From IMG/VR virus record IMGVR_UViG_3300007735_000543, positions 1 through 26,061 of that record: 26,061 nt of DNA; one strand, given 5' to 3'. Positions 18,041-24,863 of the stretch are shown here, piece after piece; positions within the stretch are counted from its first letter, which is position 1, and each line of letters begins with the position of its first letter. The position numbers and the translations under genes were made by a program. The stretch is from a virus. The notes under the pieces were generated by a model. The model saw only the letters and a program-made list of their open reading frames with translations. It made no database searches and had not been told where the DNA came from.

Positions 18041-18216
18041 AAATATAATTAACGGTAAGTAGGCTTGAAAGTAGCCAGCTTTTAAAGAGTTGTCCCTGAA
18101 ATAATGGGAGCGTACGGACAAAAAGTCAGCATCCTGGGAATATCGTTATAGGGTGTCGCACGTAGGTTGTAACGAGCCTCGTATCTTGGTGTTAAAACAC
18201 ACCGTTAATTTTTTAT
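18041..18216 (+). ncRNA. Structured RNA A, candidate novel ncRNA
   Basis: A 367-base gene-free stretch begins here. A perfect 10-base-pair closing helix joins AATTAACGGT (18047-18056) to ACCGTTAATT (18201-18210). Inside are hairpins GGCT/AGCC (18062-18065/18073-18076), TTGTCC/GGACAA (18090-18095/18116-18121), CATCCT/AGGGTG (18130-18135/18150-18155), ACG-AGG/CCT-CGT with one bulged T (18160-18166/18177-18182), and GTGT/ACAC (18189-18192/18197-18200). The loops of the third and fourth pair over 7 bases (TCGTTAT 18143-18149 with GTAACGA 18169-18175), a kissing interaction. A T run follows at 18209-18214, as in a terminator. Base composition is GC-richer than the flanks. It contains no plausible open frame. 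I cannot match it to a known RNA family from memory. Confidence 0.6.
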
Positions 18217-18253: not shown

Positions 18254-18261
18254 TATATTTG
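18254..18261 (+). promoter_or_regulatory. -7 promoter element before structured RNA B
   Basis: TATATTTG is an exact TAnnTTTG match. A start about 6-7 bases later places the first base at about 18267, two bases before the first hairpin of RNA B. No -33 TTG is seen at the expected position. The surrounding block is a near copy of the one at 18012-18040. Confidence 0.55.
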
Positions 18262-18266
18262 ATTAA

Positions 18267-18366
18267 ACTTTTTGCAGGAAGCACTACCCAGCAAAAGGTA
18301 TTTGAGGAAATCATTTACCTCATAAGCCCGTAAAGAGTAGTGCCTTTATGGGCTTTATTAATTTTA
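18267..18366 (+). ncRNA. Structured RNA B with loop-loop pairing, candidate sRNA or leader
   Basis: Three hairpins: TTTTGC/GCAAAA (18270-18275/18291-18296, 15-base loop); GAGG/CCTC (18304-18307/18318-18321), with AGGTA/TACCT as an alternative; and a 12-base-pair stem AAGCCCGTAAAG/CTTTATGGGCTT (18324-18335/18344-18355, one G-U) with loop AGTAGTGC. The first loop contains GCACTAC (18281-18287), which is perfectly complementary to GTAGTGC (18337-18343) in the last loop, a 7-base kissing or pseudoknot contact. The last stem is followed by TTATTAATTTTAT, a terminator-like tail. The GIY-YIG-like gene starts 7 bases later, so it may be a leader that controls that gene rather than a separate RNA. Confidence 0.6.
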
Positions 18367-18372
18367 TAGATT

Positions 18373-19131
18373 ATGACAGAAAATAAATATACTTACGTTT
18401 TATTTACACAAAACAGAGATAACAGCACTATAGGTGCGTATAAATTTGGATTTTCAAGAGATATAGAAGGAGTTTATAAAAGATGTAAAAATGGTAATAC
18501 ATGGTTAACTCATCTTGAAGTTGTATGTTATTGCGATTTTAATATTATTACAGAAAAACAATTAAAACATAAATATAAAAATAGTAGGAAAACTAAAGAA
18601 TGGTTTTCATTAACTAAAAGTGATTTGCAAGAAATACAATCATTTATGTCAAAGAAATTTAGACATGAAAATGTTGAAAATAATAATTTGATATATTTAA
18701 AATCAAATAACAATTTATTGTATAATGAAAAAATTATTAATAAAAAAATAGATAATAATATTACAAGGGAAGTTCATAAAGAAATTTATTTTATTGATGG
18801 AATATCATATGGATGGGGATGTGTTATATCAAGTGGTTTTGGCAAATTTTCTAAAGGATTTGCAAAATTAAATAATAATTTTTGTGATTTTATTACAGAA
18901 AATTATAGTATAGAAAACGAAAGATTTTATCATTTTTATAATGAGTTTTTAAATTGTCATAAAATGTACCCATATCATTTACTTAGAGTATTATTATTTT
19001 CTGTTTTAATGAGTGAAATACTTACTGATAAAGTATTAGGTACTGATATATTTATAAAACACGCATTAAAAAATTGCAATGGTAATCCTGAGGATTATGT
19101 TTACGGAAAAAAATATTTAGCATTACAATAA
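18373..19131 (+). CDS. GIY-YIG-like protein (T5orf172/Mug113 type N-terminus)
   Basis: A 252-residue protein. Residues 6-90 fit the T5orf172/Mug113 branch of the GIY-YIG nuclease fold: 'YTYVLFTQNRD' (first strand), 'YKFGFSRDIEG' (23-33, the degenerate YIG strand with K24 and G26), R37, 'TEKQLKHKYK' with E61, and 'TKEWFSLTKSDL' (74-85, W77/F78). Residues 100-252 are Asn/Lys/Ile-rich and of unknown function. Codon use is extremely AT-rich (long A and T runs), unlike the neighbouring replication genes, which suggests separate acquisition. It follows structured RNA B directly and precedes the initiator gene by 5 bases. Confidence 0.6.
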   Translation: MTENKYTYVLFTQNRDNSTIGAYKFGFSRDIEGVYKRCKNGNTWLTHLEVVCYCDFNIITEKQLKHKYKNSRKTKEWFSLTKSDLQEIQSFMSKKFRHENVENNNLIYLKSNNNLLYNEKIINKKIDNNITREVHKEIYFIDGISYGWGCVISSGFGKFSKGFAKLNNNFCDFITENYSIENERFYHFYNEFLNCHKMYPYHLLRVLLFSVLMSEILTDKVLGTDIFIKHALKNCNGNPEDYVYGKKYLALQ

Positions 19132-19136
19132 ATAAT

Positions 19137-20069
19137 ATGATAAACATAGATACAAGGCTTTTAAATCAGGTAACACCTGACCAACTTTACCTACTCTGCC
19201 AGATAGTTAATTTTATGAATGAGAATAAAATGTGTTTTCCTTCAAACAAAAAACTAATAATGCATAGTAAATTTTCAGAATCTAAAATTTTAAGAGTTAA
19301 AAATGAATTGGTAGCTAAGAAAATTATAAGCGTTAAGCAAAGATTTAGAGCAGATGGCAGCCAAACATCTAACCTTTATAGAATAGAATCTGATTACATT
19401 GGTGTGTTTGTAACAGGTAAAAATATGTCAAATTTGGATACCTCCCCATTCACTGATGAAGAGGGGGACACCTTCACCACTGAAGGGGGGACACCTTCAA
19501 GACAGAAGCCCCTTGAAGTATTAGCTAATAGAAGTATTAACAACAAAGAAGTATTAGTAGGTTGTGAATTTGAAAATTCACCGCCTTTTGAAACAGAAAT
19601 TAAAAATCCTTTCTCCCGCCAATCTTACCATGATTCTCTGTCCTATGAGCAAGGTGAAAAAGAAAAAGAGAAAATTTCCGGTAAAAGAGAAAAAGAAAGA
19701 GAGCCTTCGGAAACCTACCTCTGTTTCTCCGCCTTCGCCTCTACCTATGAACGCTTAGCCGGTGTTACCTATCCCTCTGACAATGGCAATTACATTATGA
19801 CTGCAAAGGATGGTTCAAACTGTAAAAAGTTAGTAGCATGGCTAAAGAAGGTAAGTGCCAGTGAACAGGCACCAGAGGACATGGTCACAATGTTTACAAC
19901 GGCTGCATGGCAGATAAGCGATAAGTGGCTAAAGGCTAATTTCACTATTAGCAACATCTACTCCCAGGCAAATAACATTTATACTAAATTTATGTATGCC
20001 AACCCGATAGCAAAGGAAAGGAAAAGGCAGGAGGAGATTGACAAATTAGTAAATGAATTTACATTATGA
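19137..20069 (+). CDS. Replication initiator with winged-helix N-terminus (DnaD/O-like)
   Basis: A 310-residue protein of phage replisome-organiser type. Residues 1-90 form a winged-helix-like domain: 'TPDQLYLLCQIVNFMNENKM', 'FPSNKKLIMHSKFSESKILR' (recognition helix), 'KNELVAKKIISVKQRF', then 'TSNLYRIESDY'. Residues about 95-190 are a disordered charged linker ('GEKEKEKISGKREKE'). Residues about 195-300 form a helical domain ending 'WLKANFTISNIYSQANNIYTKF' across about 268-289, which would bind the helicase or its loader. The linker codons carry iteron-like repeats (19457-19556), as the lambda O gene does. It overlaps the next gene by 4 bases. No helicase or polymerase gene is in the window, so host enzymes may be used or the genes lie outside. 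Confidence 0.7.
   Translation: MINIDTRLLNQVTPDQLYLLCQIVNFMNENKMCFPSNKKLIMHSKFSESKILRVKNELVAKKIISVKQRFRADGSQTSNLYRIESDYIGVFVTGKNMSNLDTSPFTDEEGDTFTTEGGTPSRQKPLEVLANRSINNKEVLVGCEFENSPPFETEIKNPFSRQSYHDSLSYEQGEKEKEKISGKREKEREPSETYLCFSAFASTYERLAGVTYPSDNGNYIMTAKDGSNCKKLVAWLKKVSASEQAPEDMVTMFTTAAWQISDKWLKANFTISNIYSQANNIYTKFMYANPIAKERKRQEEIDKLVNEFTL
19457..19556 (+). repeat. Candidate replication origin: iteron-like repeats within the initiator gene
   Basis: Two long direct repeats, TGAAGAGGGGGACACCTTCA (19457-19476) and TGAAGGGGGGACACCTTCA (19481-19499), each an imperfect dyad, lie 24 bases apart. An inverted pair CTTCAAG/CTTGAAG follows (19495-19518). Then come three exact GAAGTATTA repeats at 19515, 19531 and 19548, spaced 16 and 17 bases, in AT-rich DNA. 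The layout (repeats then AT-rich DNA, all in the linker codons of the initiator) parallels the lambda origin. Confidence 0.55.
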
Positions 20070-24740: not shown

Positions 24741-24863
24741 AGCAAGGTGGCGGAATTGGTAGACGCAAAAAACTGCAATCAGGTTTATGAATCCTGACGT
24801 TAAACAAAAAACTATCAGCGCAGGAGTGCGGAAGCTATGCGGGTTCGATTCCCGCCCTTGCTG
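24741..24863 (+). tRNA. tRNA-Leu-like gene with a 72-base middle
   Basis: The ends duplicate those of the gene at 24443: acceptor AGCAAGG (24741-24747) with CCTTGCT (24856-24862), D-arm GCG/CGC with loop GAATTGGTAGA, and T-arm GCGGG/CCCGC around TTCGATT (24839-24855). The position after the acceptor is G (Leu tRNAs normally have A) and no CCA is encoded. The middle has 72 bases. It contains TCAGG/CCTGA (24779-24783/24793-24797) with a 9-base loop TTTATGAAT, CGCA/TGCG (24819-24822/24827-24830) like a variable arm, and CTGC/GCAG (24773-24776/24820-24823). The repeat AAAAAACT occurs at 24767 and 24806; removal of one repeat plus spacer (39 bases) leaves 33 bases, near normal. No canonical anticodon arm follows either way. 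Confidence 0.55.

Follow-up and report, generated by a model that had tools for sequence, protein, structure and literature searches.

A predicted phage leader RNA with two kissing hairpin loops that may gate a built-in terminator ahead of an early operon

Just upstream of a gene for a GIY-YIG-like protein, the window (the whole stretch of 26,061 nt analysed here, positions 1 to 26,061 of the virus record IMGVR_UViG_3300007735_000543) carries three consecutive hairpins, the last of which looks like a terminator. The sequence-only reading had noticed that the loops of the first and last hairpins are exactly complementary and had proposed either a riboswitch-like leader or a stable sRNA. Is this loop pairing a conserved feature of an RNA, and what could it do at the head of an operon? 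The element and the two genes behind it are arranged as follows.

18254..18261, + strand: predicted promoter -7 box TATATTTG, of the Bacteroidota type TAnnTTTG (family-wide box position and published consensus, PMC7366714)
18268..18298, + strand: hairpin 1, CUUUUUGC-A-GG loop CC-A-GCAAAAGG (two-sided changes at 8/10 pairs)
18281..18287, + strand: kissing loop 1, GCACUAC, partner of 18337-18343
18303..18322, + strand: hairpin 2, UGAGG...CCUCA (two-sided changes at 5/8 pairs)
18324..18355, + strand: predicted terminator hairpin 3, AAGCCCGUAAAG loop CUUUAUGGGCUU (two-sided changes in 10/10 pairs of the core, 18326-18353)
18337..18343, + strand: kissing loop 3, GUAGUGC, partner of 18281-18287
18354..18366, + strand: T-rich tail of the terminator (from the sequence; U tract kept across the family)
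18373..19131, + strand: GIY-YIG-clan protein, 252 aa, first operon gene in this phage (Pfam MUG113, E 1.5e-5)
19137..20069, + strand: replication initiator (HTH_36 / phage O-like), second operon gene (Pfam HTH_36, 1.4e-8; PHROG replication initiation)

Both 7-mers are exactly where they had been placed (GCACTAC at 18281-18287, GTAGTGC at 18337-18343), each inside a hairpin loop: the apical loop of hairpin 1 is AAGCACTAC and that of hairpin 3 is AGTAGTGC (8 nt). For random loops of the same sizes and composition, the chance of 7 contiguous complementary bases is about 6e-4. The minimum-energy fold of the region consists of the three hairpins and beats 200 of 200 shuffles (z -4.1). A spacer of 6 nt separates the box TATATTTG from hairpin 1, and the ATG of the next gene, at 18373, follows the T-rich tail.

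A pattern with both loops fixed retrieved 14 further copies from viral contigs, all of the same loop type. Their stems already covary and their loops are constant, so that these copies alone do not prove the pairing; searches demanding the loop letters reach one loop type only, a result that could have passed for plain conservation. In the same phages, a covariance model (R1) describing the three hairpins but no loop pairing, trained on this one loop type, detected a second, divergent set of copies with wholly different yet complementary loops (among them GGTGCAAG/CTTGCACC, GTAGGAG/CTCCTAC and GTGAAGG/CCTTCAC); its clear sense-strand matches include no counter-example to loop matching. Further loop types were added by stem-only patterns and by a scan that looks for two hairpins with complementary loops and gives 5 chance matches per 1 Mb of shuffled sequence. 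A second model (R2), built from 40 copies with 28 stem pairs and no loop pairs, recovered 85 copies in 68 loci, corresponding to 60 distinct sequences and 19 loop types. True copies all score above 46 bits, and the other matches (96 loci, E <= 1) are at or below 32 bits, on the opposite strand or overlapping a true copy. No R2 match breaks the loop-matching rule, although its 40 training sequences had been pre-chosen by a scanner demanding complementary loops, a bias that R1 does not share.

A sample blind to the RNA was assembled from 64 viral loci fetched by their replication initiator protein only. The element is present in 57 of them, to which R2 adds none; 6 of the 7 loci that lack it have under 0.45 kb of sequence ahead of the initiator match, and L277 is the only one with 6 kb upstream and no element. 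A hairpin-1 pattern with a free loop returned known copies and unrelated matches only, two pattern searches of genome contigs gave no genuine copy, and a loop-agnostic hairpin scan was too unspecific for use. R2 gave no match on 395 Bacteroidota genomes in a loose first look, which is a weak test for prophages. Neither the GIY-YIG gene nor the initiator has a relative among 50,697 annotated phage records, and the phages carrying the element are known only from metagenomes.

The kissing interaction seen in the window recurs throughout this family. Loop complementarity is 100% in a fixed register, with none of the 85 copies (19 loop types) lacking it. Among the 60 distinct copies, 415 of 415 cells in loop columns 14-20 versus 80-86 are Watson-Crick, with no G-U pair, no mismatch and no one-sided change, and two-sided changes occur at 7/7 kissing pairs. 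All three stems covary too (paired cells: 88.8% in hairpin 1, 94.3% in hairpin 2, 98.8% in hairpin 3), with G-U tolerated. The register is precise: sliding the partners by 1-3 columns lowers whole-structure pairing to 33-47%, and the kissing helix alone, measured on the 40-sequence alignment, falls to 25-45%. When mutual information is computed over all column pairs, free of any assumed structure, kissing pairs make up 5 of the top 7. Two copies with a common backbone, L186:2689 and L250:4219, differ solely in one kissing pair, which is G-C in one and C-G in the other. Across the family the kissing helix spans 7-9 bp and has a mean energy of -8.6 kcal/mol when its 7 bp are treated as a plain duplex. 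The kissing pair is thus as well supported as the stems, and the structure of hairpins plus kissing pair, as read from these alignments, is close to certain.

The strict absence of G-U pairs from the 7-mers is also what DNA symmetry would predict, and the two could be operator half-sites of a regulator, with the RNA structure secondary. However, the 7-mers sit exactly in apical loops, the stems covary as RNA with G-U pairs, and 19 types within one phage group would need many regulators. Such an inverted repeat acting at the DNA level is highly improbable.

In a search of the whole window against Rfam 15, only a tRNA reaches the gathering threshold; the best score for the kissing RNA itself is 21 bits, against a threshold of 59, for the trpB motif. 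Three further loci (L180, L145 and L258) likewise gave nothing but tRNAs. The kissing RNA represents an undescribed and well supported family. Neither an alternative antiterminator helix that covaries nor a conserved unpaired aptamer core was seen in the family alignment. With no mutually exclusive covarying helices and no conserved unpaired core, a ligand riboswitch is not supported, and the lack of a covarying alternative helix also argues against a classical two-state attenuator. The alternative partner proposed for the middle hairpin, AGGTA/TACCT, does exist in the window (18296-18300 / 18316-18320) but is absent from members with other middle hairpins, and a switch built on it was discarded. 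Of the riboswitch-like leader proposed earlier, the leader role is supported, with promoter box, RNA, terminator and start codon at fixed spacing in 85 copies, and the ligand switch is not.

This spacing is tight. Hairpin 1 follows the end of a TAnnTTT[G/A] box by 5-7 nt in 85/85 copies. The box matches the -7 element of Bacteroidota promoters (consensus TAnnTTTG, PMC7366714); the profile of our promoter regions shows no clear -33 box, in agreement with what is reported for Flavobacterium johnsoniae (PMC7366714). Judging from promoter type only, the hosts are probably Bacteroidota. The linkers flanking hairpin 2 are kept at 3-5 and 2-6 nt, in keeping with a single fold made of all three hairpins. 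Hairpin 3 is GC-rich, is followed by a U tract as in an intrinsic terminator, and has a mean energy of -15.5 kcal/mol over the 60 distinct copies, all of which have 5-8 T within the first 8 nt after the stem. The terminator-like last stem noticed in the window, of 12 bp if outer A-T pairs are included, thus proves to covary and to keep its U tract in the family.

The start codon of the downstream gene lies 11-31 nt 3' of the terminator stem in 85/85 copies. This gap leaves no room for another promoter, which means that the downstream gene could be transcribed only by readthrough, and this argues that the element is the control region of an early replication operon rather than an independent sRNA. 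A stable, free-standing sRNA with its ends locked by the kiss, acting elsewhere while the downstream gene is read through from upstream, would account for the predicted promoter, the compact fold and the strong predicted terminator, and hairpin 2 could carry its target site. However, hairpin 2 has no conserved loop, and the start codon keeps its distance despite differing genes. The sRNA option raised by the sequence-only reading is therefore doubtful.

At least nine unrelated gene families occupy the slot behind the element: ParB-like proteins, HNH endonucleases, the GIY-YIG protein, unassigned proteins and replication initiators of different types. An element specific to the GIY-YIG gene is ruled out by this diversity. 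The earlier identification of a GIY-YIG-like gene 7 bases downstream was correct (start at 18373, with a Pfam match in the GIY-YIG clan), but the control relationship is not particular to it, as other families take the same place. The slot (18373-19131 in the window) looks like a cargo hotspot under one control region, where homing-endonuclease-like, ParB-like and other genes are swapped freely. The comparison supports the element as a predicted leader RNA of an early operon, often one with a replication initiator.

Many phages have a single copy; in others, a second lies immediately ahead of the initiator, about 0.6-2.5 kb beyond the first. Records of 33-44 kb contain one or two copies each. 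Co-resident copies never share a loop type (17/17). G421 (IMGVR 3300044619_000813, 43.8 kb) has elements at 397 and 36134, 36 kb apart; they differ in loop type, and both have an initiator gene nearby (L294 and L275). The contig may be a chimera or contain two replication modules.

We favour, with a probability of roughly 55%, the reading that 18254-18373 comprises a predicted promoter and a 5' leader RNA of about 95 nt, whose kissing pair gates the built-in terminator of the early operon by attenuation or readthrough. Transcription would start at or just before hairpin 1, from the TAnnTTTG box, and the three hairpins would be made in turn. The built-in terminator would stop most of the transcripts begun there, releasing them as compact kissing RNAs, and expression of the operon (here the GIY-YIG gene and the replication initiator) would depend on readthrough. 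The strong U tracts of nearly all copies suggest that basal readthrough may be low. The kissing pair could set the readthrough frequency because hairpin 1 would be complete before the terminator loop emerges and could seize this loop while the 3' arm of the terminator is still to be transcribed. A 7-bp loop pairing formed ahead of the 3' arm may either hinder the terminator or lock it. Since no antiterminator helix covaries, the on/off mechanism would lie in the kiss itself, in a contact with RNA polymerase or in another factor. If confirmed, a terminator loop always held by an upstream hairpin would be a simple way for RNA tertiary structure to control termination by itself.

P4, with its CI RNA (PMC4825925), and pT181 (PMC4878617) are examples of leaders whose termination can be controlled by RNA-RNA pairing, and the put RNA of HK022 is a leader RNA acting on RNA polymerase (PMC9378689). 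The P4 CI RNA and its seqA-seqC leader offer the parallel of a replication-operon leader with complementarity within one transcript, where premature termination controls the replication genes (PMC4825925); such a leader with internal complementarity was found in 57/64 initiator-selected loci, with 100% complementarity. However, lysogenic immunity in P4 relies on a processed RNA that has two distant pairing sites, whereas in the present family a single 95-nt RNA supplies both partners as apical loops, one of them that of the terminator, and no tyrosine integrase was found in 17 records. The pT181-type attenuator likewise associates kissing hairpins with an intrinsic terminator in a plasmid leader controlling transcription (PMC4878617), but it depends on a second, antisense RNA and on an antiterminator sequence. 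The phage RNA has its partner in cis, and its family shows no covarying alternative helix that could be a competing antiterminator of the pT181 type. Covarying kissing loops, some between molecules, are known in the phage RNAs ROOL and GOLLD (PMC12286853). These are much larger and are not terminator-bearing leaders, and the window RNA has no Rfam match. To our knowledge, none of P4 CI, pT181 and put has a terminator loop as kissing partner within one RNA.

The put RNA, too, is structured; with about 70 nt, against 95 nt here, it lies close to the 5' end of an early phage transcript and acts on termination, as is presumed here (PMC9378689). A related explanation is a site of antitermination like lambda N/nut or HK022 put, where RNA polymerase or a phage protein would recognize the kissing fold and pass this and later terminators. 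The element is the first part of its predicted transcript, much as putL lies just downstream of PL (PMC9378689). However, no recognition sequence is conserved except parts of the stems, and put consists of two stem-loops with neither a kissing pair nor a terminator of its own. This possibility appears very unlikely.

In the leader reading, kissing may also take place between separate RNA molecules, which would allow the released RNA to act back on leaders still being transcribed. A straight coaxial stack of hairpin 1, kiss and hairpin 3 (about 28 bp) would stretch the linkers almost fully, which would leave room for pairing in trans. One explanation makes this the main function: the short RNA released at the terminator would kiss nascent leaders of the same type and cause termination, giving negative feedback or exclusion of related phages, with loop types as specificity groups. 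The loops are self-complementary as a set, and any two RNAs of the same type could pair; there are 19 loop types, differing between co-resident copies in 17/17 loci. Like the leaders of P4 (PMC4825925) and pT181 (PMC4878617), this one lies ahead of a replication initiator, and a 1x1 internal mismatch is frequent close to the loop of hairpin 1, a feature that recalls the flexible interior loops reported for antisense kissing hairpins (PMC4878617). However, the loops are hardly hypervariable: their rate of change is about that of the stems and exceeds it threefold only when the closest pairs are compared, a pattern that does not establish diversifying selection. One co-resident pair (L151) still matches at 6/7. 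Lysogenic immunity is not indicated, since a scan of 17 records of 21-44 kb for two families, tyrosine integrase (PF00589) and HTH_3 repressor (PF01381), detected neither. We regard this trans-acting function as unlikely. The same holds for a self-recognizing leader with a private kissing code in each lineage, whose terminated RNA would sense copies of the same code and adjust termination before the replication genes; if it exists, it would provide copy-number or superinfection control by one RNA, with neither antisense promoter nor protein. With 19 loop codes that occur naturally, differ from one another and sit on similar frames, the family also offers a ready-made set for building orthogonal RNA regulators. 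It belongs to a broad group of phages that probably infect Bacteroidota, in which little is known of phage RNA regulation.

Other features stand out besides the kissing RNA. A second structured RNA (RNA A, 18046-18214, + strand), closed by AATTAACGGT/ACCGTTAATT and ending in a U tail, lies just upstream of the leader. It has no Rfam match, and none of the other fetched loci contains it. Acinetobacter phage ME3 and Aeromonas phage 4_4572 both have, in intergenic DNA close to tRNA genes, a match of 84-89% identity to 36 nt from its 5' part (GGTAAGTAGGCTTGAAAGTAGCCAGCTTTTAAAGAG). Three Vibrio genomes (L122, L128, L131) carry an element of 63-70 bp with the ends AAAGGCACTACT / AGTAGTGCCTTT, or near variants, conserved in three species; it is unrelated to the phage RNA and is perhaps a small terminator or mobile element. 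Finally, the Rfam tRNA model matches 24741-24863 of the window at 36.8 bits; the match covers 123 nt, includes a long insertion and has no counterpart among the ARAGORN predictions. A tRNA match of equal length exists in L258 (12159-12281), and the window sequence is possibly an intron-bearing or decayed tRNA.
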